A stretch of DNA of 64,000 bases. It comes from Myxococcales bacterium (lineage in GTDB: Bacteria; Myxococcota; Myxococcia; Myxococcales; Myxococcaceae). The position numbers and the translations under genes were made by a program. Within the stretch, counting starts at the first letter, position 1; the number at the start of each line of letters is the position of its first letter. Positions 2,489 through 59,559 of this stretch are shown here, one piece after another. The stretch spans positions 1 through 64,000 of the forward strand of contig JACPVI010000025.1 in NCBI GenBank assembly GCA_016191815.1. The letters run 5' to 3'. The notes beneath the pieces were generated by a model. The model had not been told where the DNA came from. It ran no database searches and saw only the letters and a list, made by a program, of their open reading frames with translations.

Positions 2489-2628
2489 GAAGCGGGCGCA
2501 AGGTTATCGAGCGGCGCCGATGTCGGTCAAACGACACTCTGACGCCGACGAGGCCGGGGGGTTCGAGCACCGTGGGGGCCGTCGAAAAGAGTTGGGCTTT
2601 GCCCGGACGTTCGGTAAGTCGGCCGGCC

Positions 2629-4467
2629 ATGCGCCACTCGCACCTTCTTCCAGTTGCCCTCGTCGTCCTCTCGCCCTTCGCCCCCGCCCTCGGCCAGGTC
2701 CGGCCGGGCCCCGCCGACGCGAAGGCCTTCGCCGAGAAGGTCAACGTCGACCTCAAGAAGCTGTGGGTGAAGCAGCAGACGGCGGAGTGGATCAAGAACA
2801 CCTACATCACCGACGACACCGAGCGGAACGCCGCCTGGGCGAACGAGGACGTGATGGCCTACCTCTCCTCGGCGATCAAGGAGTCGGTGAAGTTCAAGGG
2901 CCTCCAGCTCGACGCCGACACCGCCCGGATGCTCTACCTCTTGCGCGTGGCCTCCGCGCTCCCCGCCCCCAGCGACGAGAAGAAGCGCGCCGAGCTGGCC
3001 GGCATCGCCGCCAAGCTCGAGGGAATGTACGGCAAGGGCAAGTGGTGCGGGGGGGACTACACCCCGGGGAAAGATCCCGAGCAGGACAAGAAGCGGTGCA
3101 AGGACCTGCTCCAGCTCTCCGAGATCCTCTCCAAGAGCACCAAGTACGAGGAGCTGCTCGACGCCTGGGCGGGGTGGCACACCATCTCCCGCGAGATGCG
3201 GCCGCTCTACCAGCGGCTGGTGGATCTCACCAACGAGGGCGCCCGCGAGATCGCCTTCGCCCACACCGGCGAGCTGTGGCGCTCCGGCTACGACATGTCG
3301 CCCGCCGACTTCGAGAAGGAGACCGACCGGCTCTGGGCCCAGGTGAAGCCGCTCTACGACGAGCTGCACTGCTACGTCCGGGCCCAGCTCTCGAAGAAGT
3401 ACGGGGCCGACAAGGTGCCCCCCGAGGGGCCGATCCCCGCGCACCTGCTCGGGAACATGTGGGCCCAGGAGTGGAGCTTCACCTACCCGATGATGGAGCC
3501 GCACAAGGGCCAGGCCAGCCTCGACGTCACCGCGGCGCTCAAGAGGAAACGCTACGACTCCAAGAAGCTGGTGCGGCTGGGCGAGTCGTTCTTCACCTCG
3601 CTGGGGCTCGATCCGCTGCCCCAGAGCTTCTGGGAGCGCTCGATGTTCACCAAGCCCCAGGACCGGGAGGTGGTCTGCCACGCCAGCGCCTGGGACGTGC
3701 AGTTCAACGACGACCTCCGGATCAAGATGTGCATCAAGATCGACGAGGAGGACTTGACCACCGTCCACCACGAGCTGGGGCACGACTACTACTTCCACTA
3801 CTACTTCAAGCTCCCCGTCCTCTATCAGCAGGGCGCCAACGACGGCTTCCACGAGGCGATCGGCGACGCGCTCACCCTCTCCATCACCCCCGAGTACCTG
3901 GCCAAGGTCGGCCTGTTCGAGAAAGCCCCCGCGCCCAACGAGAAGCTCCTCATCAACCAGCAGATGAAGGACGCCCTGGACAAGATCGCCTTCCTGCCCT
4001 TCGGCCGCCTCATCGACCAGTGGCGGTGGGACGTCTTCTCCGGCAAGGCCGGCCCCGACCGCTACAACGCCCACTGGTGGGAGCTGCGCACCAAGTACCA
4101 GGGGATCGCCTCGCCGATCGGCCGCACCGAGCAGGACTTCGACCCCGGCGCCAAGTACCACATCCCGGCCAACGTCCCCTACATGCGCTACTTCCTCGCC
4201 CGCATCCTCCAGTTCCAGATGCACCGTGCCTTGTGCAAGGCCGCCGGGCACAGCGGCCCCTTGCACGCCTGCTCGATCTACGGGAACAAGGAGGCCGGCG
4301 CGAAGCTCCGGGCGATGCTCGAGCTGGGCGCGAGCAAGCCATGGCCTTTGGCGCTCGAGGCCTTGACCGGACAGCGGGAGATGGACGCCACCGCGCTCAC
4401 CGAGTACTTCGAGCCGTTGCAGAAGTGGCTCAAGGAACAGAACAAGGGCCGCAAGTGCGGCTGGTGA
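2629..4467 (+). CDS. secreted peptidyl-dipeptidase, peptidase family M2 (ACE-like)
   Basis: A 612-residue protein with an N-terminal signal peptide ([20 protein letters not shown], then LGQ). The zinc site is HELGH (381-385) preceded by another His, and the third ligand is Glu409 in GFHEAIGD. These are the hallmark motifs of family M2 (angiotensin-converting-enzyme type), which removes C-terminal dipeptides from oligopeptides. Length fits a single-domain bacterial M2 enzyme. An in-frame upstream ATG at 2572 exists, but the ATG at 2629 starts the signal peptide and is preferred. Likely periplasmic or extracellular peptide digestion, which suits a predatory or scavenging lifestyle (inference). 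Confidence 0.9.
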
Positions 4468-33749: not shown

Positions 33750-34931
33750 TCAACCCAGCTGCTTCTCGTAGATCCGGTACGTCTTGTACCGCCGCGCGCC
33801 CATCGACTCGACCGCGCGGTTGATGAGGTCGTTGTCCTCGGCGGTCCAGCCCAGCTCCCCGCCGGTGAAGCCGAGCTTCCGCGCCGCGTGCATGGTGTCC
33901 AGGTACAACAGCGCGTCCAGGCCGCGGCGGCGGAAGCCGGGCTTGATCCCCAACAGCAGCACCCGCACCCGGTCGATCCCCCGCGCCGCCCAGAGGAGCC
34001 TCAAAAGCCCCACTGGCAGCCCGAAGGTAGTGAGCCGGCCGTTCGCCGCGCGGATGGCGACGTTCGAGTCGGGAAGAGTGAGAGAGAACGCCGCCGGCTC
34101 TCCCAAAACCTCTGCGATCAGGCACAGCTCGGGGCGGATCTGCACCAGAGGCCTCAGCCGCACCGCGAAGGCGTCGAACTCCTCGTCGCTCAGCGGAACG
34201 AAGCCCCAGCTCCGCTCCAGCATCGCGTTGTAGATGCTCTTGATCCGCCGGATCTCCTGCGGGAGCGCTCGCATGTCGATCGGCCGGACGCGCACGCCCT
34301 CTTGCTCGCGCACCTTCTCGGCCACGCGCACCACCTTGTCCGGCGGCGCCACCGAGGTGGAAAGCTCCCAGGCCCACAGGTCCTTGCACTTCTCCAGGCC
34401 CGCGCCCTTGAGCAGCGCATCGAAGGTGGGCGGGTTGTACGGCATCATCATCGCCGGCGGGTGCTCGAAGCCTTCGACCAGCACGCCGCAGTCGTGGTTG
34501 AACGACAGGTTGACCGGGCCGATGAGCTGCTTCATCCCGCCCCGGCGCACCCACTCCGCGGCTGCGTCCACCAGCGCGCAGGCCACCGCCGGGTCGTCCT
34601 CCGACTCGAACATGCCGAAGAAGCCGCACTCGGTGTTGTGGAACTGGTTGTAGTGCGAGTCGTTGATGGCGGCGATTCGCCCGGCGACGCGCCCGCCCCG
34701 CCGCGCCAGGAACAGCGCCAGCTCCGCGTGCCCGAGGAAGGGATTCTTCGCAGGATCGAGGAAGTCCCTCCGCTCGGCGAGGATCGGCGGGACGAAGTTC
34801 GGATCGCCCCGGTACAGCCTTAGCTGCAGCTTTAGGAACTCGTCCCGATCCTTCGGGGTACGGACCGGCTCCACGGAAACCTCGAGCGGCGGCCGGGCGG
34901 CCGGAGCCCCGGGATGCGTGGAGACCTGCAT
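33750..34931 (-). CDS. GNAT-like acyltransferase, bacterial ceramide synthase (bCerS) candidate, copy 2
   Basis: A 393-residue protein without signal peptide. It shows the conserved pattern of the long GNAT-type family found in sphingolipid loci: PNFVPPILAERRDFLDPAKNP near residue 45, the FFGMFESEDD segment, a RGGMKQLIGPVNLSFNHD segment and a C-terminal acetyl-CoA-like fold (IKPGFRRRGLDALLYLDTM). It is clearly a paralogue of the product of 35969-37147, with the same motif order and length. Expected role: N-acylation of 3-ketosphinganine to 3-oxoceramide. Its start overlaps the stop of the epimerase gene by one base (TGATG). Confidence 0.7.
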   Translation of the reverse strand: MQVSTHPGAPAARPPLEVSVEPVRTPKDRDEFLKLQLRLYRGDPNFVPPILAERRDFLDPAKNPFLGHAELALFLARRGGRVAGRIAAINDSHYNQFHNTECGFFGMFESEDDPAVACALVDAAAEWVRRGGMKQLIGPVNLSFNHDCGVLVEGFEHPPAMMMPYNPPTFDALLKGAGLEKCKDLWAWELSTSVAPPDKVVRVAEKVREQEGVRVRPIDMRALPQEIRRIKSIYNAMLERSWGFVPLSDEEFDAFAVRLRPLVQIRPELCLIAEVLGEPAAFSLTLPDSNVAIRAANGRLTTFGLPVGLLRLLWAARGIDRVRVLLLGIKPGFRRRGLDALLYLDTMHAARKLGFTGGELGWTAEDNDLINRAVESMGARRYKTYRIYEKQLG

Positions 34932-35935
34932 CAGAGCAGGCCCTCCTGGCGGTACCACTCCAGGGTGTGCCGGAGCCCTTCCCTGAGGTCCCGGGCAGCG
35001 GAGAAGTCGATCTCCTCTTTCGCGCGCGCGGGCGAGCAGGTCCACGCCGGCTGCCGCATCTCGCGGGCCTTGTCCCGGCTGAGGAGCGGCACCTGCTTGG
35101 TGAAGCGGCCGGCCAGCTCGCTGCCGAGGCCGACCGCGTAGCCCACCGCCTCCGGGAGCGGGAACACCCGCGCCCTCCTCCCGTTCAGCGCGTGGGAGAG
35201 CGCGTCGCAGAACTCCTCCCAGCTATAGGCGTGAGGGTCCGCCACGAAGTAGATGCCCTGGGTCGGATCGTCCTGGGAGATGGTCTTCCCGCGGGTCGAG
35301 GCGGCCACCAGCGCCTCGCAGAGATCGTCGACATGGATGAACGAGTACTGCTTGGGACCGAGCCCCGCCTTGAGGAAGACGCCGAGCCTCCCCATGGCGA
35401 GGAGCGGCGGCAGGTTGATGCTGTCCCCCGGCCCGTAGACGATCGGCGGCCGGACGATGACCGACGGCACCCGGTCGGCGTACTGGCGGACTGCGATCTC
35501 ACCGCCGAGCTTGCTCTTGCCGTAGGTGGAGATCGGCGCGGGCGGCTCCTCCTCGCGCCTGGGCCGATCGATGGCTGCGGGGCCGGCGGCGGAGAGGGAC
35601 GAGCAGTAGACCAGCCTGGGCGGCCGCTCGAGCCGCGCCAGCGCGTGGCAGAGCAGGCGGGTGCCTTCGGCATTCGCCCGGTAGTAGTCCTCGGCGGCGC
35701 GTGCCTTCACCACGCCGGCCAAGTGCTGCACGCATTCGACGCCCTTCACCGCCTCGTCGAGGCCGTCGCCGGTGACGAGATCGCCCACCGCGAAGCGCAG
35801 GCCGGGGATCTTGTCCAGCTCGGCGCGGTTGGAGCTTCGGCGGACCAGCGCGGTGACGGTGTGCCCTCGCGCCGCGAGCGTCCGGGCCAGGTTCCCGCCC
35901 ACGAAGCCGGAGGCGCCGGTGATGAGGTAGTGCAT
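34931..35935 (-). CDS. NAD-dependent epimerase/dehydratase, ceramide reductase (CerR) candidate
   Basis: A 334-residue extended short-chain dehydrogenase. The nucleotide site is GASGFVG (7-13), and the catalytic YGKSK (YxxxK) follows a Ser ~25 residues earlier (YCSSLSAAG). The pattern RPPIVYGPGD is typical of the extended family. Alone it could act on nucleotide sugars or steroids. Placed between two ceramide-synthase-like genes and behind serine palmitoyltransferase, it best fits CerR, which reduces the 3-keto group of the ceramide precursor in Caulobacter. Confidence 0.82.
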   Translation of the reverse strand: MHYLITGASGFVGGNLARTLAARGHTVTALVRRSSNRAELDKIPGLRFAVGDLVTGDGLDEAVKGVECVQHLAGVVKARAAEDYYRANAEGTRLLCHALARLERPPRLVYCSSLSAAGPAAIDRPRREEEPPAPISTYGKSKLGGEIAVRQYADRVPSVIVRPPIVYGPGDSINLPPLLAMGRLGVFLKAGLGPKQYSFIHVDDLCEALVAASTRGKTISQDDPTQGIYFVADPHAYSWEEFCDALSHALNGRRARVFPLPEAVGYAVGLGSELAGRFTKQVPLLSRDKAREMRQPAWTCSPARAKEEIDFSAARDLREGLRHTLEWYRQEGLL

Positions 35936-35968
35936 GTCCTTCTCCTCCGGCAGCGCGGCCGGCTCGGG

Positions 35969-37147
35969 TCAAATCGCCCGCTCGTAGATCCGGTATGTCT
36001 TGTACTTCCTGCCGCCCATCGACTCGATGGCGCGGTTGACCAGGTGGTTGTCCTCGAGCGTCCAGGAAATCTCCCCGCCGGTGTACCCGAGCTCCCGGGC
36101 CGCCTTGAGCGTGTCGAGGTAGAGGATGGCGTCCAGCCCCCGGCGCCGGTAGCCCTCCTTGATGCCCAGGGTGATGAGCCGGAGCCGCTTGATCCGCCGC
36201 GCCGCCAACAAAAGCTTCACCAGCCCGATCGGCAGCCCGAAGCGGGTGAGCCTTCCGCCGGCAGCCTTGAGCGCCGGGTTGGCGTCGGGCAGCGTCATCG
36301 AGAACGCCACCGGCTCGCCCTTCACCTCGGCCAGGAGCAACAGCTTGGGGACCACGAGCTGCTTGAGCTCGCGCGCCATGTGATCGAACTCGGCGTCGGT
36401 CATGGGCACGAAGCCCCAGTTCTTCTCCCAGGCGGAGTTGTAGATCTCCTTCACCCGCCGGACCTCGGACTCGAAGTCCTTCATGTTGACCGCGCGGACC
36501 ACCACGCCCTCGCGCTGGCGGACCTTCTCCGCGATGCGCGCCACCTTCTCCGGCGGCGCCACCGAGGAGGACAGCTCCCACGCCCAGAGGTCCTTGGCCT
36601 TCTTGAAGCCGCAGGCCTCGTAGAGCGCCGGGTAGTAGCGAGGGTTGTAGGCCATCATCACCACCGGCGGAGCGTCGAAGCCCTCGACCAAGACCGAGCA
36701 CTCGTAGTTGGTGGAGAAGTTCATCGGACCGATCATCCGCCCGAAGCCCTGGGCCCCGCACCAGGTGGCCGCCGCCTCGAACAGGGCCCGCGCCACCCGC
36801 ACGTCGTCGGCACACTCGAACATCCCGAACGCCCCGAGTCGAGTGCCGTGGAACTCGTTGTAGCGGGGGTCGTTCACCCCGGCGATCCGGCCCACCACCT
36901 GGCCGCCCCTGCGCGCGAGGAACAGCGCGGCCTTGCCGAACTGGAACCAGGGGTTCTTCCGCGGATCGAGGAAGTCCTTCCTCTCCATCAAGAGCGGCGG
37001 GACGAAGTTGGGGTCGTCGCGGTACAGCTCGTAAGGGAAGAGCACAAAGGCGTCCCGGTCCCGGGGGGACTGCACCGGGGTGACGGTGACGTCGCTCGGT
37101 GCGGGCGCCGGCTCGCGCTGGCTCATCTTCGCCGCGGGGACCGCCAT
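35969..37147 (-). CDS. GNAT-like acyltransferase, bacterial ceramide synthase (bCerS) candidate, copy 1
   Basis: A 392-residue protein, paralogous to the product of 33750-34931 throughout. Shared blocks include PNFVPPLLMERKDFLDPRKNP, GAFGMFECADD, IGPMNFSTNYE and the C-terminal IKEGYRRRGLDAILYLDTL plus YKTYRIYE. It follows serine palmitoyltransferase after only 4 bases, so the two are almost certainly co-translated. This makes it the more likely main acyltransferase of the pair. The ATG at 37147 gives the family N-terminus; a longer upstream frame reads into the neighbouring gene. Confidence 0.72.
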   Translation of the reverse strand: MAVPAAKMSQREPAPAPSDVTVTPVQSPRDRDAFVLFPYELYRDDPNFVPPLLMERKDFLDPRKNPWFQFGKAALFLARRGGQVVGRIAGVNDPRYNEFHGTRLGAFGMFECADDVRVARALFEAAATWCGAQGFGRMIGPMNFSTNYECSVLVEGFDAPPVVMMAYNPRYYPALYEACGFKKAKDLWAWELSSSVAPPEKVARIAEKVRQREGVVVRAVNMKDFESEVRRVKEIYNSAWEKNWGFVPMTDAEFDHMARELKQLVVPKLLLLAEVKGEPVAFSMTLPDANPALKAAGGRLTRFGLPIGLVKLLLAARRIKRLRLITLGIKEGYRRRGLDAILYLDTLKAARELGYTGGEISWTLEDNHLVNRAIESMGGRKYKTYRIYERAI

Positions 37148-37151
37148 GGGC

Positions 37152-38687
37152 TCAGGCCTCCGGCTGCTTGCCGTTCTTGATAAACAGGTTGGCGCCCTTC
37201 TCGAGGAGAAGGCCGGGGATCTCCCCACGCCGCTCCCAGAGTCGGAGCGGGGTCTTGGAGAGCCGCTTCAAGTCCTCGGGCTGGAGATTCGCGGCGCGCC
37301 AGGTGAGCGTCTCCACCGCGTCGAAGAGCTTATTGGCCATCTCGCGGGAGGACAGCTTCGTTAGCTGCCCGAGCGAGAAGCCCTGCTCGGCGGCGAGCCC
37401 CGCCGAAGTCTTGGCCCACCGCTGGGAGGCCTGGTTGGCGCGCACGAAGGAGCCGGGCCGGGCCACCTTCACCGGCACGTAGGTCGATGGCCGGGCGTGG
37501 GGGATGATGCCCATCTTCCGGCCGACCCGCTCGAACGCGTCGAGGACTCGGTCGAGCTGCTCGTCGGTGTGGGTGGCCATGTAGCTGGTGCGGATGAGCG
37601 CGTGGCCGGGCTCCACCGCGGGCGGGATGACGGGGTTGGCGAAGACTCCGGTCTCGAAGAGCGCCTTCCAGAACCGGAAGCACTTCACCTGGTCGCCGAT
37701 CAGCACCGGCACCACCGGGGTGACGCTCACTCCGGTGTCGAAGCCCATCGCCCGAAAGCCGTTGTGCATCTTCTCGGCGATGTCGAGCAGCCGCGAGCGG
37801 CGCTGTGGCTCCGACTCGACGATCTCCAGCGCCTCGAGGGCGGAAGCCACCGAGGCGGGGGTGATCGACGCGGAGAAGATGATCGGCCGCGCCTTGTGCT
37901 TGATGTAGTTGATGACCTCGAACGGGCCGGCGAGGACGCCTCCCAGCGAGGCGAAGCTCTTCGAGAAGGTGCCCATCACCACGTCGGTCTGGGCCTCGAG
38001 CCCGAAGTACTCCGAGGTCCCCCGCCCGTGTGCGCCGAGCACGCCCAGCCCGTGCGCGTCGTCGACCAGCACCCGCGCGCCGTACTTCTGGGCCAGCTCG
38101 ACGATCTTGGGCAGGTTGCAGAGATCTCCCTCCATCGAGAAGACGCCATCGGAGGCGATCAGCTTGCCCGCGTTCGGCTTGGCCGCGGCGAGCAACGACT
38201 CCAGATTCTCCATGTCGTTGTGGCGGTACTTCCGCTCCTCTCCGAACGAGAGCCGGATCCCATCCACCAGCGAGGCGTGGTTGGCCCGGTCGGAGAAGAC
38301 CACGTCGTGCCGCCCCAGCAGGGCGCTCATCGCGGCCAGGTTCGTCTGGAAGCCGGTGGACACCACCACCGCCGCCTCGCGGTTGAGGAAGCGCGCCAGG
38401 CGGGCCTCCAGCTCCTCGTGCAGCTCCAGCGTGCCGTTGAGCAGCCGCGAGCCGGAGCAGGTGGTGCCGAATCTCTTCAGGGCCGAGAGCGCCGCCTCCT
38501 TCACCCGGGGATCGCTGGCGAGCCCGAGATAGTTGTTGGAGCCGGCCATCACCACCCTTCGGCCTTCGATCTCCACCTCGGTCGAGCCGTGGATGGCCTG
38601 GATGGCCCGGAAGTAAGGGTACAGGCCGGTGGCCTTGGCGATCTTGTAGTCCTTCCACGAGGCGCATTTGTCGAAGATGTCTGCCAT
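37152..38687 (-). CDS. spt: serine palmitoyltransferase-like alpha-oxoamine synthase
   Basis: A 511-residue PLP enzyme of fold type I. The PLP lysine is Lys243 in GTFSKSFASLGG, the serine-palmitoyltransferase-type version of this motif, unlike the TLGKA of AONS/KBL enzymes. Other sites are NYLGLA (52-57), His137 in NHASLVDG and VDDAHGLGV (208-216). The expected reaction is L-serine plus a palmitoyl thioester to 3-ketosphinganine, CO2 and CoA or ACP. It is ~100 residues longer than usual, with a charged C-terminal extension (from ~410). First gene of the minus-strand ceramide-like block. Confidence 0.85.
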   Translation of the reverse strand: MADIFDKCASWKDYKIAKATGLYPYFRAIQAIHGSTEVEIEGRRVVMAGSNNYLGLASDPRVKEAALSALKRFGTTCSGSRLLNGTLELHEELEARLARFLNREAAVVVSTGFQTNLAAMSALLGRHDVVFSDRANHASLVDGIRLSFGEERKYRHNDMENLESLLAAAKPNAGKLIASDGVFSMEGDLCNLPKIVELAQKYGARVLVDDAHGLGVLGAHGRGTSEYFGLEAQTDVVMGTFSKSFASLGGVLAGPFEVINYIKHKARPIIFSASITPASVASALEALEIVESEPQRRSRLLDIAEKMHNGFRAMGFDTGVSVTPVVPVLIGDQVKCFRFWKALFETGVFANPVIPPAVEPGHALIRTSYMATHTDEQLDRVLDAFERVGRKMGIIPHARPSTYVPVKVARPGSFVRANQASQRWAKTSAGLAAEQGFSLGQLTKLSSREMANKLFDAVETLTWRAANLQPEDLKRLSKTPLRLWERRGEIPGLLLEKGANLFIKNGKQPEA

Positions 38688-40048: not shown

Positions 40049-40225
40049 CCAAACAGGTTCCACCGCTTCGACGGACCTGCAGGGGGAGGTAGCTGTTGCG
40101 CCCGGCGAAGCCGGCGAGATAGCGTCCGCGCCCTCGTCCACCGAATCAAGAGGTTTCGCCTCCAGGGGCGAAGGGTGCGGGGGTCGGCCGTTCGGTGGCC
40201 GGGAAGACCCGCCGCGGAGGAGAAG

Positions 40226-41419
40226 ATGAACAGCCAGGAGCTGACCAGCAGGTTCGCCCTAACCCACGACCCCGAGAGCAGCCGCCGGACCATCTGTGGG
40301 ACGGACGTGATCATCCACTGTCACCATTACAACTCGCGCATCCAGCGGACAATCGAGGGAGCCGCGGGGATCGACGGGAAGAAGATCTTCGTCCGGGCTG
40401 CGGAGTCCGTGTTCTCCGGGATGATCCGTCAGGCGATCCGGCCAGGAGACTCCACCGCGGAGAAGTGGGAGATCGCCGCGGCGCTCTACTCCCACCTCGG
40501 GTATGGCAAGCTCGACCTCTCCTCGCTCTCCACGGGGCTCGCGCTGGGCACTCAGTCCCACTTCGTGGAGGGATGGAACGCCGGCTTCCCCGAGCGCAAG
40601 ACGCCGGTGTGCTCGCTGACCTCCGGCTACTTGCAAGCCGCTCACTTGGTGGTGACCGGCGATCCGGTCAGTGTCCGGGAGGAGGAATGCATGGTGGGCG
40701 GGGCAAAGGTGTGCCGCTTCGCAGTGAACCGCAGCCGCACCGAGCCTGCCGCCACCTATCAGAGGCGGCCCGTCCCCGGCCCGACCGGGAAGCCGAGCAC
40801 CCCGGCCCCGTCGAACATCGACCAGAAGAAGATCACCGAGGCCCTGGTCGCGATGCCGATTCACGGGAACAACGACGGGCTCCTCCCGGCCTTCAACGTC
40901 TACCTCGCCAATACCCCGATCGACTTCTACAACCTGGCTTGCTTCTCCTTCATCGAGGAGATGGACCGCTTGAAGATTGGCGCGGCGGCCAAGAGCCAGC
41001 TGATGGCCGACTCCGAGTACTGCGGCATCAACACCTTCCAGGGGATCATCTCCTCGCCGGAGTGGGCCGGGTTGGTCGGGCCGATGATCAAGGACCAGCA
41101 GCGAGACACCATGCACGGCATCGTGGCGGTGAGCAACGCGCTGGGCTGGGGAAACTGGCAGATCGTCGAGCACACTCCTGCCCAGAGCCTGCGGCTGGAG
41201 TCTCGAAACGGCTACGAGGCCACCGGCTTCCTCGAGCTCCGCGGGAAGTCCCAGGTGCCGAGCTGCCTGATGCTCACCGGCGCCGCCGCCGGGATCATGG
41301 AGTTGGTCTACGGCGAGGGCTCGGAGCGCGAGCGGTTCGGCCAGTTCGCTTCCCGGGAGACCACTTGCCGCTCCTGCGGAGGTGAGGCCTGCGGCTTCGA
41401 GGTGACGGAGGCGTCGTGA
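40226..41419 (+). CDS. tandem V4R-domain protein
   Basis: A 397-residue protein. It has two copies of the V4R (4-vinyl reductase) domain, each ending in the family Cys signature: EEECMVGGAKVCRFAV near residue 155 and ETTCRSCGGEACGFEV at the C-terminus. V4R domains bind small molecules such as tetrapyrroles or hydrocarbons and are common sensors in two-component systems. It sits immediately upstream of a histidine kinase with a 19-base gap, so it is a likely sensor partner. GGAGGAG precedes the ATG. Confidence 0.82.
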   Translation: MNSQELTSRFALTHDPESSRRTICGTDVIIHCHHYNSRIQRTIEGAAGIDGKKIFVRAAESVFSGMIRQAIRPGDSTAEKWEIAAALYSHLGYGKLDLSSLSTGLALGTQSHFVEGWNAGFPERKTPVCSLTSGYLQAAHLVVTGDPVSVREEECMVGGAKVCRFAVNRSRTEPAATYQRRPVPGPTGKPSTPAPSNIDQKKITEALVAMPIHGNNDGLLPAFNVYLANTPIDFYNLACFSFIEEMDRLKIGAAAKSQLMADSEYCGINTFQGIISSPEWAGLVGPMIKDQQRDTMHGIVAVSNALGWGNWQIVEHTPAQSLRLESRNGYEATGFLELRGKSQVPSCLMLTGAAAGIMELVYGEGSERERFGQFASRETTCRSCGGEACGFEVTEAS

Positions 41420-41438
41420 CGCCCTGCCGCCGGCTCAC

Positions 41439-43049
41439 ATGACCGCCCAGAGCAGCCCATCGGCGCGGGCGGAGGCATTCGCCGAGCAGGGCTCTCCGCT
41501 CTACCTGCTGGGGCTCGACCAGAGCCTGCAGATCCTGTCTGCGGACCGGCGCTTTGCGCAGGCCTTCTCCTTCGATGGGGAGTTGGTCGGCCGCCGGCTA
41601 GACGAGCTGTTCAGCCCCTCCGACCGGCTGGGAGTGGCCGATTTCTACGGAGGGCTGACCCGGTACCAATCCGGCTTCCTCGACGTGCTGGTCAGCCTCC
41701 GGCTCGGCAGCGCAGACCATCACACCCGCCTCCGCATGCGCTTGGAGGGGCAAAGCTGGTTGGCCTTCATCGAGCCGGTGGGCGGCCCGGGCTGTGCGGT
41801 GCACAATCTGCTCCTCAGCCGCGAATGGTGGCGAACGGTGGTGCGGGACGCCACCGACGGGATCGCCGTGGTGGCCCCGGACACACGCATCGTCGAGCAC
41901 AATCCCCGCTTCCTGGAGCTCTTGCGGCCTCGCTCGACCCATGGCGTCGCCCTGAGCGAGGAGTCCATCGCCGGTAAGCCGCTGTTCGAGCGAGTCGCCG
42001 GTTCCTCCTTCGCGCCGGTCGAGGAAGCGATGCGCGCCGCCAAGCCCAGGAGCCGGCGCTTCTCGGGGAGGATCGTCCATGGCAACCTCCACCTTCAAGT
42101 CTCGCTGACCCCGATCCTCGTCCCGGCGAGGGGTTTCACCGGCTGCTCTCTGGTGCTGCGCGATCTCACCGCCGAGGAAGAGGTGGCTCAGCTCAGGGCG
42201 CGCATCGCCCGCGAGGCGGGAATGTCAGAGGTGGCGACCGGGGTGCTCCACAACGTGGGAAATGCGCTGAACAGCGTGAACGTGTCCTCCCAGGTGCTGG
42301 CGGAGATGGCCCGCGCCTCCAAAGCCCAGAGCCTCGGGAAAGCGGCGGCGATGTTCGAGGAGCACCAGGGCGATCTCGGCGCCTTCCTGACCGGAGACCC
42401 CAAAGGCCAGCGCCTCCCCGGCTTTCTCAAGAGCCTGGCCGCCCACCTCCAGGGCGAGCGCGAGGCGCTCTTGCAGGAGGTCTCCAAGCTTCAACAGAAC
42501 GTCGAGCACATCAAGAGCATCATCGCCGCGCAGCAGACCTATTCCCGAAGCTCGCTCTACCTCGAGACGCTGTCGCTGCGGTCGGTGGTCGACACCGCGC
42601 TGGCGGTGAACGTGCTCAAGGCGACCCGAAGCGATATCCGGGTGGTGGTGGAATGCGGCGACTTCCCCCAGGTGGAGCTGGATCGCCACCGGGTGCTGCA
42701 GATCCTGGTCAACCTCTTGAGCAACGCCCGCCACGCGGTCCAGAGCGCCGAGAAGCCAGTCAAGGAGATCCGGGTCAAGGCGGAGCTGAGCGGCAACCTG
42801 GTGCGCGTCTCGGTGGCGGACAACGGGGCGGGCGTGCCTGACGAGGCTCGGCCGCGGATCTTCGAGCATGGCTTCACCACCAAGAAGAGCGGCCACGGCT
42901 TCGGGCTCCACTCGAGCGCCATCGCGGCCAGGGAGATGGGCGGGAGCCTCACCTTCCACAGCGACGGCCCCGGGCAGGGCGCCACCTTCATCCTCGAGGT
43001 CCCGGTGAGGTGCGGGGCGCGGGCGGCAGAGGAGGGCGGGCCGCGATGA
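41439..43049 (+). CDS. PAS-containing sensor histidine kinase
   Basis: A 536-residue soluble kinase with no membrane segments. Residues ~15-115 and ~130-240 look like PAS domains. The phospho-acceptor is probably His271 in GVLHNVGNALNS, an unusual H-box. Next comes a coiled-coil (KLQQNVEHIKSIIAAQQ), then the ATPase domain with N-box NLLSNARHAV, DNGAGV and GHGFGLHSSAIAAREMGG. Its stop overlaps the start of the GGDEF regulator (ATGA), which strongly suggests that pair as partners. Input probably comes from the V4R protein upstream. Confidence 0.9.
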   Translation: MTAQSSPSARAEAFAEQGSPLYLLGLDQSLQILSADRRFAQAFSFDGELVGRRLDELFSPSDRLGVADFYGGLTRYQSGFLDVLVSLRLGSADHHTRLRMRLEGQSWLAFIEPVGGPGCAVHNLLLSREWWRTVVRDATDGIAVVAPDTRIVEHNPRFLELLRPRSTHGVALSEESIAGKPLFERVAGSSFAPVEEAMRAAKPRSRRFSGRIVHGNLHLQVSLTPILVPARGFTGCSLVLRDLTAEEEVAQLRARIAREAGMSEVATGVLHNVGNALNSVNVSSQVLAEMARASKAQSLGKAAAMFEEHQGDLGAFLTGDPKGQRLPGFLKSLAAHLQGEREALLQEVSKLQQNVEHIKSIIAAQQTYSRSSLYLETLSLRSVVDTALAVNVLKATRSDIRVVVECGDFPQVELDRHRVLQILVNLLSNARHAVQSAEKPVKEIRVKAELSGNLVRVSVADNGAGVPDEARPRIFEHGFTTKKSGHGFGLHSSAIAAREMGGSLTFHSDGPGQGATFILEVPVRCGARAAEEGGPR

Positions 43050-44236
43050 ACCACGGCACCGTGCGGCGCATCCTGGTGGTGGACGACAACCACGCCATCC
43101 ATGACGATTTCCGCAAGATCCTCACCCTCGGCTTCAAGGGAGAGCCATCGCTGGAGGACGCGGAGCGAGAGCTGTTCTCCGACGGCGAGCGGGGCCACGA
43201 GCCTCGCGTCACCTTCCAGATCGACTCCGCCTACCAGGGGAAGGACGCGGTGGAGCTGGTGCTCAAGGCCGCGGAAGCCAGCGAGCCGTACGAGATGGCC
43301 TTCGTGGACATCCGGATGCCTCCGGGGTGGGACGGGGTGGAGACGGTGGCCCGCATCTGGGAGCGCTACCCGGATCTGGAGGTCGTCGTCTGCACCGCGC
43401 TCTCGGACTACTCCTGGGAGCAAATGGTCGGGGTGCTGGGGCACAGCGACCGGCTGCTGATCCTGAAAAAGCCCTTCGACAACATCGAGGTGCGCCAGCT
43501 CGCCTACGCCCTCACCGAGAAGTGGCGCCTGCGCACCGATGCGCTCAGGACGGTCGGCGAGCTGCAGGCGATGCTGGGCGAAATCGTCTCCACCCTGCCC
43601 AACCGCTCGGAGTTCGAGTCGGCCGGGCCCAGGGTCGGCAACGGGGTGCTGGAGCGGATGCGCTCCGCGCTCCACGCCCTCAACACCCAGCTCGTGCAGC
43701 GCGCCCAGGAGAGTGAGCAGCGGGCCCAGCGCGACGGCCTCACCGCGCTGTACAACCGGGCCTACCTGGACCTGCAGCTCACCGTGGAATTCGAACGGGC
43801 GCGCAGGACAGGCCAGCCGCTGAGCTTGCTCTTCTGCGACCTGGACCACTTCAAGGAAGTGAACGACACCTTCGGCCACCGGGCTGGGGACGAGGTGCTG
43901 GTCGCGGTGGCGAACGTGCTCCGCTCCTCAGTCCGGGAGCCGGACTTGGTGGCCCGCTACGGCGGAGAGGAATTCGTGTGCCTCTTGCCTGGAACTGGCG
44001 CGGCGCAGGCCGAGAAGGTGGGCCAGCGCCTGCGGGAGTCGGTCGGCTCTCAGGTCGTCGCAGGGGGCAAGGAGAGAGTGACCGTCTCGCTCGGCTGCGC
44101 GACCCTGGAGCCCGGCCGGACGTTCGCGTCGCCGAGGGAGATGCTCGAGGCGGCTGACCGATGCCTCTATGCCGCCAAGCGCGGAGGCCGAAACCGGGTG
44201 GTCACTCTCGGTGCGCCATCGCAACAGGAGGGGTGA
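43046..44236 (+). CDS. response regulator with diguanylate cyclase (GGDEF) output
   Basis: A 396-residue protein. The receiver domain (1-~160) has the phospho-acceptor Asp88 in FVDIRMPPGWDG and a ~20-residue insert after its first helix. A linker with a coiled-coil follows. The GGDEF domain has the active motif GGEEF (306-310) and an RxxD inhibitory site (297-300) exactly five residues before it. Prediction: phosphorylation by the coupled kinase raises c-di-GMP, with product inhibition. Two PilZ proteins in the window could read the signal (inference). Confidence 0.93.
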   Translation: MNHGTVRRILVVDDNHAIHDDFRKILTLGFKGEPSLEDAERELFSDGERGHEPRVTFQIDSAYQGKDAVELVLKAAEASEPYEMAFVDIRMPPGWDGVETVARIWERYPDLEVVVCTALSDYSWEQMVGVLGHSDRLLILKKPFDNIEVRQLAYALTEKWRLRTDALRTVGELQAMLGEIVSTLPNRSEFESAGPRVGNGVLERMRSALHALNTQLVQRAQESEQRAQRDGLTALYNRAYLDLQLTVEFERARRTGQPLSLLFCDLDHFKEVNDTFGHRAGDEVLVAVANVLRSSVREPDLVARYGGEEFVCLLPGTGAAQAEKVGQRLRESVGSQVVAGGKERVTVSLGCATLEPGRTFASPREMLEAADRCLYAAKRGGRNRVVTLGAPSQQEG

Positions 44237-54881: not shown

Positions 54882-57347
54882 TCAGGCCTTGCTCACGCGC
54901 ACGCAGCACTCCTTGTGCAGCGCCTGGCCCCCGATCGGATCCGCCTTCGTCGGGCGCAGGGCCCCGTCGGCGGTGCCCGCCCCGCTCGCCACCTTCCCCA
55001 TGGCCCAGTGTCCAAAGCCGTGCTGCAACCCGACCACCTCGGGGTGGATCCCCTCGGTGAGCTGCGCCTTCGCCTTCACCTTGCCGTACTTCGACTCCAC
55101 CCACACCTCGTCGCCGTCCTTGATCCCGAGCTGCCCGGCGGTCTTGCGGTTGATCTGCAGCGGGTTGGCTGGCTTGAGCTCCACCAGCCAGCGGTTGTTC
55201 TGGGTGCGGGTGTGGGTGTGCGTGCTCTCCTTCCAGTTGATCAGGTAGAGTGGGTAGTCCTTGTCCGGCTGCCAGTCCCTGGGCGCGTACACCGGCAGAT
55301 CCGAGCAGGGCTTGCCGGTGGCGTCGTTCTTCCCGGCCAGCACGTTGAGCACGAACTCGACCTTCCCGGTCGGGGTCTGGAAGCCCTTCACCGGCTTGCC
55401 ATCGAGCATCGTGCCGATCCGCTTGCCGCCTTGGTCCTTGGGCTTGTCGAGGATGTGCTCGACCTCCAATTCGCCCACCTGCGTCTTGACCACCGCGGCT
55501 GTAGCCATCTTGTCGGCGGGGATCTCGCTGGCGTACTTGATGTACTTGGTCCCACCCTTGTCGACCCAGGTGGCGCCGGGGAGCTTCTTCATCTGCTCGA
55601 GGGTGAGCTTGGGAGCGCCGCTCTTCGACTCGTTCGAGAAGTACTCCTCGTACCAGGCGGTGACGCTCTCCACCCGCTGACCCGACAGAGGGCCGACCCA
55701 GAAGAAGTCCTTCCCGTCTTGGTCCTTGAGCCCGAGCCGGCGCCCCAGCTCGACGACGAACTCGTACTCGGCGGGCTGGCCAAAGAGGGGCTTCACCACC
55801 GGCTGGCGCAGCCCGAGCACCGGCCAGGTGACCCAGTGGGTGTTCCAGTCGTACCGCTCGAGGTAGGTGGTGCCGGGCACCACGATGTCGGCGAGCTGCG
55901 CCGTCTCGGAGAGGAAGATGTCGTTCACCACCAGGAACTCGAGGTTGCCGAGCGCCTTGGCCACGGTCTCCTGCCCGGGCACCGACATGATCGGGTTCTG
56001 GAAGACGATCACCGCCATCTTCGCCGGGTACTTGCCCTTGCCCTCGGCGAGCTGGCGGAAAATCTCGCAGTACACGCCCGACTTGTGGAACATCGGGTAG
56101 AGCTTGTCGTCTCCGGCGAACCGCGGTGCCTTGGGCTTCTCCACGTGCAGGTGGCCGTGCTTGTTGCCGCCCTTGTTGGGCAAGTGGAGCGTCCCTGGGC
56201 GGTCGAACCCGCCGGTGAGCCCGGCCAGGCAGGCGATGGCCGCACCGCCAGGCACCGCGTTGGAGTGCTGGCCTGGGCCAGACCAGACGTCGACCACGGC
56301 GGGCTGGGTCGTCGCGAACTCCCGGGCGATGCGCTCGATGGTGGCCGCCGGAACGGTGGTGATCTTCTCGGCCCAGTCAGGAGTCTTGTCCTTCACGAAT
56401 TCCGAGAAGCGGTCGAACCCGTAGCTCCAGCGGGCGACGAACTCCTTGTCGTACAGCTGGTCGCGGACGATCACGTGGGCCATGGCGAGGGCCATCGCCC
56501 CGTCGGTGGCGGGCCGGATCGGCACCCACTCGTCGGCCTTGCGCGCGGTGGCCGAGTTGAAGGGGTCGACCACCACCAGCTTCGCGCCGCGCTCCCGGGC
56601 GCGGGTCATGATCCTCGGCAGGTGGGACCACTTGGTCGCGCCGAGCGGGTTCCACCCGAAGAGCAGGATGTACCGGGACTGGATCGCATCCATCAGCGGC
56701 CGCTCGTCTCCCATCACCGCCTTGAACGAGGCCTTGCGAGCGGTGTCGCAGAGGTTCGAGTGGTTGGAGTAGTTGGGCGTCCCGAACAGCTCGCAGAAGT
56801 CGCCCTGGATGTGGGTGAACGAGTGGTCTTCGGAGAACCACAGCAGGGCCTCGGGCGTGCCCGCATCGCGGAGGGCCTTCATGCGCGAGGAGACTTCCTG
56901 GTAGGCCTCCTCCCAGGAGATCTCCTTCCATCCAGGATCTACTCCCAGGCCCTTCTTGGGGTTGGTGCGGCGCACCGGCTTGGCCAGCCGGTCCGGATCG
57001 TACAGCGTCATCAGCCCCGCATTCCCCTTGGGGCACAGCACCGCGCCTTCCACCGGGCAATTCTTGAAGAAGTCGTCGGAGATGTTGGAGAAGCCGTTTG
57101 GGTTGTGGGAGTTTGGCTTGATCCGCACCACCAGGCCGTCGACGACCTGGCACATGATGCCCGACTGCCCGCCGCACATGTTGCAGCAGGAGGGGATCCA
57201 CTCGCCGGCCTGGAAGTCGTAGCGCTTGTCGACCTCGGCGGCGAGCGCCTCGGCGGTGCGGGCCCCGAGCAGCCAGGAGAGACCGCCGGCAGCGGCTCCC
57301 GCGAGCGCCGATCCAGCGAGGAACTGCCTGCGATTCGTGTCGTTCAC
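54882..57347 (-). CDS. Tat-exported molybdopterin oxidoreductase, catalytic subunit
   Basis: An 821-residue DMSO-reductase-family enzyme. A Tat signal (RRQFLAGSALAGAAAGG) directs export. A 4Fe-4S site is formed by Cys55, 58, 66 and 105. The likely Mo ligand is Cys200 in NYSNHSNLCDTARK. The rest carries the usual MGD-binding segments, ending in the FxxTH-type domain. Subfamily features lie near thiosulfate/polysulfide, tetrathionate and arsenate reductases, but the substrate cannot be fixed. The GTG start overlaps the stop of the membrane-subunit gene, giving order porin-FeS-NrfD-Mo, like ttrBCA. Confidence 0.88.
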   Translation of the reverse strand: MNDTNRRQFLAGSALAGAAAGGLSWLLGARTAEALAAEVDKRYDFQAGEWIPSCCNMCGGQSGIMCQVVDGLVVRIKPNSHNPNGFSNISDDFFKNCPVEGAVLCPKGNAGLMTLYDPDRLAKPVRRTNPKKGLGVDPGWKEISWEEAYQEVSSRMKALRDAGTPEALLWFSEDHSFTHIQGDFCELFGTPNYSNHSNLCDTARKASFKAVMGDERPLMDAIQSRYILLFGWNPLGATKWSHLPRIMTRARERGAKLVVVDPFNSATARKADEWVPIRPATDGAMALAMAHVIVRDQLYDKEFVARWSYGFDRFSEFVKDKTPDWAEKITTVPAATIERIAREFATTQPAVVDVWSGPGQHSNAVPGGAAIACLAGLTGGFDRPGTLHLPNKGGNKHGHLHVEKPKAPRFAGDDKLYPMFHKSGVYCEIFRQLAEGKGKYPAKMAVIVFQNPIMSVPGQETVAKALGNLEFLVVNDIFLSETAQLADIVVPGTTYLERYDWNTHWVTWPVLGLRQPVVKPLFGQPAEYEFVVELGRRLGLKDQDGKDFFWVGPLSGQRVESVTAWYEEYFSNESKSGAPKLTLEQMKKLPGATWVDKGGTKYIKYASEIPADKMATAAVVKTQVGELEVEHILDKPKDQGGKRIGTMLDGKPVKGFQTPTGKVEFVLNVLAGKNDATGKPCSDLPVYAPRDWQPDKDYPLYLINWKESTHTHTRTQNNRWLVELKPANPLQINRKTAGQLGIKDGDEVWVESKYGKVKAKAQLTEGIHPEVVGLQHGFGHWAMGKVASGAGTADGALRPTKADPIGGQALHKECCVRVSKA

Positions 57348-58708
57348 AGGTCACCTCCGCTCGAGACGTGTCCGGCCGCGGCGGCAGGACGGCCCTCCGC
57401 CTTGGCGTGAATCGGGGGCGGCCCGGCAGCCGCCGTGGAATGGTCTCCCGCCAACTGTTCGGCCTCATCGAGCGGCAAGAGCCGTCGCGCAACGAAGAAC
57501 AGCCAGGTGCCGATGGCGACCACCCCCAGCCCCACCAGCCATTCGTTGCCGCTGGGGAAGTAGCCGCGGACAAACCGCAGGTGGTGGTAGGCATCCGGCA
57601 GGGTTGCGAACTCCGGCTCGATCTGCGCGGGGACGACGATGTTGAGCCGCACGCCGATGATTCCGAAGACCACCAGCAGCCCCGCGATCGCCAGCGGGCC
57701 GATGGCGTTGCCGGTCCGCTTCCCGAGCACGACGAGGATCGGCACCACCGCGCCCAAGCCCACCTGGACGAACCAGAAGATCCACCAGAAGGGGCCGAAC
57801 ATGATCTGGTGCCACCCGGCCACGTGGTGGGGGATGCCGCCGTAGAACACCACCAGCATCTCGGAGCCGAGCAGCAGGAGATCGAGCGCGACCACTCCCA
57901 CCGTGAGCCGGCCGAGCGAACGTACGAGGTCGAGCTTCTGCGCCTTGGGGAGTCGCGAGCTGATGGCGGTGAGGAACGTGAGCAGCGCACCGCCCGAGGC
58001 CAGCGCGGACACCAGGAAGACGATCGGGAAGAGGCCCGTGTACCAGGTGGGGCGCGACTTCACGACGGCGAAGATCGCGCCGGTGCCTCCGTGCACGCCG
58101 ATGGCGATCGGGATGCCGATGATCCCGAGGAGCAGCATCCAGCGGGCGGCCTTGCTGCGCCAGGCCTTCTCCTCCGCCTCGCCGGCGAAGGCGAGCTTCT
58201 TGGCCAGTCCCGCAAGGGGGCCGCCGCTGTGGGCGCGCCTGGCCAGCGCCGGCCGGAGCACCAGGTACAGCTCGGCGATGATCACCACCGAGTAGGCAAG
58301 GTAGAGGGCCGACTCCCACGCCAGGACCGAGCTGTAGTTCCAGTAGGCGAAGACGTTGAGGAACCGCGCCGGGTGGCCCAGGTCGATCCAGATGAGCAGC
58401 ATGCCGAGGACCAGGCACCCGAGCGCCTGGAGGAGCGCGAGCGGCCCGGCCGCCTCGAACCGCTTCATCCCGAAGACGTAGATCAGGGTCGAGAGGAGGA
58501 AGGAGCCGGCCGACAGCCCGATGAAGTAGATGTACAGCGAGATCCACAGTCCCCAGGGGACGTGCTGGGTCAAGTGGGTGACGATCAGGCCCTCGCTGAA
58601 CCGGACCGACAAGGCCCAGATCCCAACCGCGGACAGGGCCAAAAGCACCACATGGCCGAGGAGGCGTGACGACCGCCCCTCGTTCGCCGCTTGCAGGGTG
58701 TTGGTCAT
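57344..58708 (-). CDS. NrfD/PsrC-family quinone-linked membrane subunit
   Basis: A 454-residue protein with about ten membrane segments. The start has WGLWISLYIYFIGLSAGSF, typical of NrfD/PsrC proteins that exchange electrons and protons with the quinone pool. Conserved LGHPARFLNVFAYWN and GWHQIMFGPFWW segments follow. The C-terminal ~50 residues are Ala/Pro-rich and polar. AGGAG precedes the ATG at 58708. Coupled to the catalytic subunit by a 4-base overlap, and separated from the Fe-S subunit gene by 11 bases. Confidence 0.9.
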   Translation of the reverse strand: MTNTLQAANEGRSSRLLGHVVLLALSAVGIWALSVRFSEGLIVTHLTQHVPWGLWISLYIYFIGLSAGSFLLSTLIYVFGMKRFEAAGPLALLQALGCLVLGMLLIWIDLGHPARFLNVFAYWNYSSVLAWESALYLAYSVVIIAELYLVLRPALARRAHSGGPLAGLAKKLAFAGEAEEKAWRSKAARWMLLLGIIGIPIAIGVHGGTGAIFAVVKSRPTWYTGLFPIVFLVSALASGGALLTFLTAISSRLPKAQKLDLVRSLGRLTVGVVALDLLLLGSEMLVVFYGGIPHHVAGWHQIMFGPFWWIFWFVQVGLGAVVPILVVLGKRTGNAIGPLAIAGLLVVFGIIGVRLNIVVPAQIEPEFATLPDAYHHLRFVRGYFPSGNEWLVGLGVVAIGTWLFFVARRLLPLDEAEQLAGDHSTAAAGPPPIHAKAEGRPAAAAGHVSSGGDL

Positions 58709-58719
58709 CGTCGGGCTCC

Positions 58720-59559
58720 TCAAGCGGGCAGGTAGTAGACGGCGGGTTCGTTCCCCAGCTCTTCTTTGAGCCGGTAGGGGCTGCGCTTGGCGAGCAGCGC
58801 CTGCATCTTCTCGCCGTGGACGAGGCAGGTCGCCTCCGGGTTCTTCAGATCCCCGAAGTGAATCGCCTTGCCCATGCAGGTGCGCGCGCAGGCGGTGGGC
58901 TCACGGTAGTCGCCGTTCTCGTCTTGCAGGTGCAGGCAGAAAGTGCACTTGCGGACGTTGCCGGAGGGGCTCTTGCCCTTGGCCCGGGTGCCGTAGGCGG
59001 CGCCGTACTCGCTGGAGGGGATAAGGTTGTAGCCGTTCTTCGCGTCGGCGATGTAGTCGTGGCCGTAGTCGAAGGAGCGCGCGCCGTAGGGGCAGGCCGC
59101 GATGCAGTAGCGGCAGCCGATGCACCGCTTGTAGTCCACCGCCACGATGCCGTCGGCCCGGTGGTAGGTGGCGCCGGTGGGGCACACCTTCGAGCACGAG
59201 GACTTCTCGCACTGCATGCAGGGACGGAAGAAGGCGGTCCTTCGGACATGCGGGAAGGTTCCGGCCTCCTCCTCGAGGAATACTCCGTACGCCACGCCGG
59301 GTGGGGTCTTGTTCTCGTTCTTGCAGGCGATCGTGCAGGCCTTGCAAGCGATGCAGCGCTTGAGGTCGATCACCATGCCCCAGCGGCGGGTCTGGGCGCC
59401 TTCCGCCCTTGGGGAGGTGGTCTTGCAGCCCCCGAGCGATGCGACGGCCGCGAGCGCGGCGCCGCCTCCTAGGAGACCGAGCAGCTTGCGCCGATCGGGG
59501 GGGGACGACGGCTCGGCATCGGCCTGCGGGGTGGGGGTGTCGTTCTCTTCCCTGGCCAT
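58720..59559 (-). CDS. four-cluster 4Fe-4S electron-transfer subunit, Tat/lipoprotein signal
   Basis: A 279-residue protein. Four Cys groups are visible: CIACKACTIAC, CMQCEKSSCSKVC, CIGCRYCIAAC and CTFC with later Cys residues. They fit the NrfC/PhsB-type subunit that passes electrons between the Mo enzyme and the NrfD subunit. The N-terminus has DRRKLLGLLGGGAALAA followed by the lipobox SLGGC, so it looks like a Tat-exported lipoprotein. It is the second gene of the operon, ten bases after the porin. Confidence 0.9.
   Translation of the reverse strand: MAREENDTPTPQADAEPSSPPDRRKLLGLLGGGAALAAVASLGGCKTTSPRAEGAQTRRWGMVIDLKRCIACKACTIACKNENKTPPGVAYGVFLEEEAGTFPHVRRTAFFRPCMQCEKSSCSKVCPTGATYHRADGIVAVDYKRCIGCRYCIAACPYGARSFDYGHDYIADAKNGYNLIPSSEYGAAYGTRAKGKSPSGNVRKCTFCLHLQDENGDYREPTACARTCMGKAIHFGDLKNPEATCLVHGEKMQALLAKRSPYRLKEELGNEPAVYYLPA

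Follow-up and report, generated by a model that had tools for sequence, protein, structure and literature searches.

Ceramide is a lipid of membranes and is chiefly familiar from animals and fungi. Here, a 64,000-nucleotide stretch of the genome of a Myxococcales bacterium (contig JACPVI010000025.1, hereafter the window) was found to hold four adjacent genes, spt, bCerS1, cerR and bCerS2, which judging by their sequences very probably form one operon making (dihydro)ceramide, with bCerS2 as an added acyltransferase (Table 1). The high-GC host genome (89 contigs, 6.77 Mb, estimated completeness 98.8%) carries the window as contig C19, and genomes of 9-13.8 Mb also occur in the host's family.

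Table 1. Genes of the predicted ceramide operon and their positions in the window (GNAT, acyltransferase family; PLP, pyridoxal phosphate; SDR, short-chain dehydrogenase/reductase).
Gene and product	Position	Strand	Remarks
spt, serine palmitoyltransferase	37152-38687	-	511 aa; PLP motif GTFSKSFASLGG
bCerS1, GNAT-like N-acyltransferase	35969-37147	-	392 aa; predicted ceramide synthase
cerR, NAD(P)-dependent SDR	34931-35935	-	334 aa; predicted (3-oxo)ceramide reductase
bCerS2, diverged second bCerS paralogue	33750-34931	-	393 aa; A239, W240, L52 changed

The original prediction described four minus-strand genes that are separated by 4 and 33 bases or, in one case, overlap by 1 base, and this was exact when the open reading frames were re-read. 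The ATG of bCerS1 begins 4 bases past the spt stop, the gap between bCerS1 and cerR is 33 bases with GGAGGAG preceding the cerR ATG, and cerR and bCerS2 overlap by 1 base in the junction TGATG. Codon usage was of the coding type in all four genes (GC content at third codon positions 0.89-0.94, far over that at second positions). The order of the genes is not due to chance, since the same order was found in other genera.

The first gene had been predicted to encode a synthase of the serine palmitoyltransferase (SPT) type, and a grouping with AONS/KBL had been named in advance as a refutation; this grouping was not seen. In a maximum-likelihood tree, Spt clustered with the SPTs 3A2B and 2X8U and with the SPTs of the Caulobacter, Sphingomonas and E. 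coli loci (support 99/96). Outside this clade were E. coli BioF and Kbl, 7POA, the host BioF (C11) and a host Kbl-like enzyme (C81), the latter pairing with E. coli Kbl; a search of the host genome brought up no more than three alpha-oxoamine synthases. An AONS/KBL identity for Spt was thus ruled out by the tree. The top NCBIfam model for Spt was NF047600 (SerpalmtaseCFB) with 517 bits, against 385 for BioF and 382 for Kbl, and the nearest solved structures in a PDB sequence search were the SPTs 3A2B/8GUH (405 bits, E 3e-120), compared to 313 bits for the closest AONS/KBL enzyme. In an alignment to SPT 3A2B, Spt shows the PLP lysine motif GTFSKSFASLGG and the further active-site segments of alpha-oxoamine synthases (NHASLVDG, DDAHGLG and, C-terminally, IRTSYMATHT). 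The placement in the tree agrees with a published SPT subgroup of Bacteroidetes and delta-proteobacteria that includes Myxococcus (PMC9386255).

Residues 396-511 of Spt (window 37152-37503) make up a C-terminal extension of about 115 residues that is conserved across the order (e.g. KLFDAVETLTWRAANLQP...) and, according to the alignment, missing from the Streptomyces and Rubrobacter homologues. The extension had no Pfam match and is possibly a membrane or carrier contact.

Both GNAT-like proteins proved to be full-length homologues of the bCerS in the sphingolipid loci of Caulobacter. The Caulobacter reference genomes were found by scanning genome contigs with Caulobacter PopZ and are proxies for CB15/NA1000, the strain of the characterised genes. 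Each of four such genomes contained one or two matches to bCerS1 (E 2e-73 to 2e-82) with 37-41% identity over the full length of about 375 residues, and one match sits a few kb from CerR-AcpR-Spt in loci L146-L148 and L150. Identity to the bCerS of these loci was 36-40% for bCerS1 and 35-38% for bCerS2, also over the full length. Of the two proteins called GNAT-like in the original prediction, only bCerS1 passes the Pfam GNAT cut-off of 20.7 bits (28.8 bits) and bCerS2 stays below it (16.2 bits). In the bCerS tree, bCerS1 joins the single bCerS of the family, and it retains the family-wide motif NxAWxxNWGF.

The window N-ACYLTRANSFERASES (bCerS1 and bCerS2) showed 33-35% identity to E. coli YghO, a candidate acyl-CoA N-acyltransferase of E. 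coli BL21 (PMC9386255), and 44-50% identity to a Streptomyces plasmid protein. No match to bCerS1 was found in the closest C. vibrioides metagenome-assembled genome or in Phenylobacterium aquaticum, a scan of viral contigs gave no bCerS, and a PDB sequence search for bCerS1 relatives of known structure gave only a chance match. Caulobacter segnis (L149, L150) carries two bCerS copies (E 7e-76 and 2e-73), of which just one lies at the Spt locus. A plasmid record of E. coli PN43 (L056, 5525-11122) holds a complete set of Spt, acyl carrier protein (ACP), CerR-like protein, fatty acyl-AMP ligase (FAAL) and YghO (bCerS), which adjoins glc genes and LptF/G-type genes; these same genes have been described for E. 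coli strain BL21 (PMC9386255).

The reductase with the motifs GASGFVG and YxxxK is of the CerR type, as had been proposed, by virtue of a reciprocal best match with Caulobacter CerR. With the Caulobacter protein (P0005) as query, the window SDR was the top match in the host genome (99.6 bits; runner-up 81). In the other direction, the CerR of the sphingolipid locus ranked first in 4/4 Caulobacter genomes with 90-101 bits, and no other match exceeded 40 bits in three of them, the next in the fourth (G061) reaching 57. The extended-SDR motifs TGxxGFxG and YxxxK are present as TGASGFVG and YGKSK. The window CerR opens directly at the nucleotide-binding strand (MHYLITGASGF), and likewise Caulobacter CerR (MSIVAVTGATGF), for which a periplasmic location has been argued (PMC11087976).

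The Spt tree, the bCerS homology and the reciprocal CerR match support, at the level of sequence, the prediction that the block makes ceramide or 3-oxoceramide. In the proposed pathway, Spt would form 3-oxosphinganine from L-serine and a long-chain acyl thioester, bCerS1 would N-acylate the 3-oxosphinganine and CerR would reduce the 3-oxo group, a step that follows acylation in the model put forward for Caulobacter by the Klein laboratory. Most likely, bCerS2 would acylate either the sphingoid base that bCerS1 acts on or the ceramide, with another acyl chain or at another position, and would probably represent a second acylation specificity. For Caulobacter, one group places acylation before reduction (PMC11087976) and others have argued for reduction before acylation (discussed in PMC11087976 and PMC9386255); the order is disputed and the gene order does not settle it. 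The sequences show to which families Spt, bCerS1 and CerR belong, that the operon is conserved, and the origin and changed residues of bCerS2; we infer co-transcription, catalysis, the order of the steps and the specificity of bCerS2.

The two paralogues of the window, bCerS1 and bCerS2, share 60-61% identity. In the bCerS tree, bCerS2 falls into a fully supported clade (100/100) with 15 members, and it arose by duplication of bCerS1 within the order. All 15 members lack A239 and W240 of the motif NxAWxxNWGF, having M followed by L, M or R (ML in the window), and all 15 carry I at L52; each of the three residues is kept by 98% of 44 other homologues. The GNAT-type residues and most family-invariant ones are retained in bCerS2 (G86/R87, G140/P141, R323, G337, E359 and W362). 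By sequence, bCerS2 is better described as a paralogue that has diverged from bCerS than as a bCerS proper, and redundancy with the ceramide synthase is not to be assumed.

The distribution of bCerS was surveyed in 195 genomes of the phylum at E <= 1e-90, at which large-genome genera (e.g. g8, g11, g15, g23 and g26) displayed a single bCerS. The bCerS2 genes occurred in two contexts. The first is the order Spt-bCerS1-CerR-bCerS2 of the window, shared with G009, G023, G020, G011 and G006; the two GNAT genes of G026 are spaced in the same way, which makes six relatives with bCerS2 behind CerR. In the second, found in other genera, bCerS2, often in tandem with bCerS1, adjoins a FAAL-like protein and a fusion of polyketide synthase and alpha-oxoamine synthase (PKS-AOS) of approximately 2,250-2,350 aa with the domains KS, AT, KR, DH and AOS. 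The PKS-linked bCerS2 were altered further at S145, N147, N243, N367 and E375 (e.g. S145A, N147H and N367D). In four of these genomes (G012, G015, G114 and G115) bCerS2 lies by FAAL/PKS-AOS and bCerS1 was not found, an absence limited by the draft state of the assemblies. The window-type Spt was not found in the ten genomes of the second context that were searched, where the matches to the Spt query were the PKS-AOS fusion (about 232-253 bits) and other synthases (<=264 bits). In the Spt tree, the AOS domains of the fusions stood apart from the SPT clade on a long branch, and from sequence the FAAL and PKS-AOS loci look like cases in which the serine palmitoyltransferase was replaced by PKS-AOS.

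FAAL and KS-AT-KR-DH-AOS genes beside bCerS were located at L152:8392-19880 (G021) and L049:3075-14967 (G017), as well as in L158 (G015), L160 (G012), L209 (G115), L210 (G114) and L154 (G019), all from genera belonging to the host's family. In G021 it is bCerS1 that adjoins FAAL/PKS-AOS, bCerS2 being on a separate contig. A literature search, whose scope stopped short of most subscription papers including the one defining bCerS, returned no paper describing either a second paralogue of bCerS or a PKS-AOS next to bCerS in myxobacteria.

The substitutions in bCerS2, with the invariant residues kept, are read as catalysis retained and specificity changed. That bCerS2 has long been kept in two gene contexts speaks for a role of its own, and since the FAAL/PKS-AOS relatives carry bCerS2 with or without bCerS1, it can probably act in the absence of the latter. 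Most likely, bCerS2 would thus be a sphingoid-base acyltransferase of shifted specificity. Our fuller proposal is tentative and is held with slightly less than even confidence: a functionally distinct sphingolipid acyltransferase, using another acyl donor or O-acylating ceramide, may have arisen from bCerS duplication in the order and moved in several genera to a FAAL-loaded PKS-AOS pathway replacing Spt. That bCerS2 instead performs the same reaction as bCerS1, as a redundant ceramide synthase adding gene dosage, is consistent with the invariant residues it has kept, but the clade-wide loss of A239 and W240, the additional changes in the PKS-linked members and the retention in two contexts make this unlikely. 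A non-catalytic role, or one as an obligate heteromer partner of bCerS1, would explain why the two share an operon in the four-gene loci and often stand in tandem in the PKS loci; it is rather improbable, given the catalytic-type residues of bCerS2 and its four occurrences in draft genomes beside FAAL/PKS-AOS without bCerS1. Least probable is that the product is not serine-derived ceramide but a different alpha-oxoamine lipid (e.g. a sulfonolipid, or a lipid of the 1-deoxy-ceramide kind from alanine or glycine), for although alpha-oxoamine synthases have fold and mechanism in common and Spt also matches the cysteate acyltransferase 28EH (249 bits), SPT 3A2B is clearly closer (405 bits), Spt groups with the SPTs in the tree, and orthologues of bCerS and CerR come after it.

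Some observations weigh against a ceramide operon with a distinct bCerS2. The 517 bits of Spt are below the equivalog cut-off of 640 of NF047600, as are the 506 bits of the G022 relative, and membership of this narrow equivalog model is not claimed. The identity of CerR is modest (32-36%) in a very large superfamily. An AlphaFold2 model of bCerS1, for which bCerS2 was the sole additional sequence in the alignment, reached a pLDDT of 49 and is not good enough for locating the changed residues. Finally, no ACP or acyl-ACP synthetase was found in the block, and the acyl donor may be CoA- or ACP-bound. On host contig C51 (25857-27575, L221), a FAAL-like gene is followed by an ACP-like reading frame; the pair is reminiscent of the AasR/AcpR pair listed for M. 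xanthus in PMC9386255 and could supply Spt with its acyl donor.

The compactness of the block relative to Caulobacter, to which the original prediction had drawn attention, is real with regard to the spacing but not distinctive. Single Spt-bCerS-CerR runs were found within the order in G013, G022, G039, G040, G046, G048, G050, G054 and others, as well as in G097, and plasmids of Streptomyces sp. NBC_01001 and Rubrobacter radiotolerans carry Spt-GNAT-SDR operons, so that a status of the compact operon as exceptional was rejected. The three ceramide genes are often clustered and Myxococcota_A is among the likely producers (PMC11334938), and the five ceramide genes of Caulobacter span only CC_1154-CC_1165 (PMC9386255). 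Because compact runs are widespread and clustering is already in the literature, the Spt-bCerS-CerR core is of a familiar kind and comes as no surprise in this order, ordinary save for bCerS2, which makes the locus a modest variation on a known operon. With the core, one more genus joins the bacteria that have the genes to make ceramide, and the bCerS1/bCerS2 pair offers a natural comparison for the residues setting acyl-chain or acceptor choice.

Elsewhere in the window, a V4R-domain protein, a PAS/HATPase histidine kinase and a receiver-GGDEF protein lie in a row next to the ceramide operon (40175-44236, plus strand) and are a probable cyclic-di-GMP signalling set. A complete peptidase M2 protein of the angiotensin-converting-enzyme family is encoded at 2572-4467 on the plus strand (E 9e-224). 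On the minus strand, adjoining genes for a molybdopterin oxidoreductase, an NrfD-type membrane subunit and a 4Fe-4S protein (54882-59559) resemble a polysulfide-reductase-like membrane complex.

Compared with known systems, the window genes are homologous to all three of Spt (CC_1162), CerR (CC_1164) and bCerS (CC_1154) of the Caulobacter ceramide pathway. That pathway further includes a dedicated ACP and acyl-ACP synthetase, AcpR (CC_1163) and AasR (CC_1165), its Spt belongs to the other SPT subgroup and is without the C-terminal extension, and its bCerS follows LptF/G-type genes at a distance of about 6 kb from spt (L146-L148), with no bCerS2. The same-order operons of G022, G013, G054 and G039 share the gene order, the similarly short spacing and the Spt extension with the window, but are without bCerS2. 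In the plasmid operons of Streptomyces sp. NBC_01001 and Rubrobacter radiotolerans the three-gene order is the same, with genes overlapping or near-contiguous, whereas the hosts are Actinomycetota, Spt has no extension and bCerS2 is absent. The exchange of Spt for PKS-AOS with bCerS paralogues kept suggests an evolutionary route between membrane and polyketide-made sphingolipids. The PKS-AOS relatives with bCerS2 are comparable to SgaAB, the PKS/AOS sphingolipid cluster of Pseudomonas fluorescens MYb115 (PMC12134224), but SgaA and SgaB are two distinct proteins; in the relatives a single KS-AT-KR-DH-AOS fusion is accompanied by a FAAL, and the window has a stand-alone Spt.

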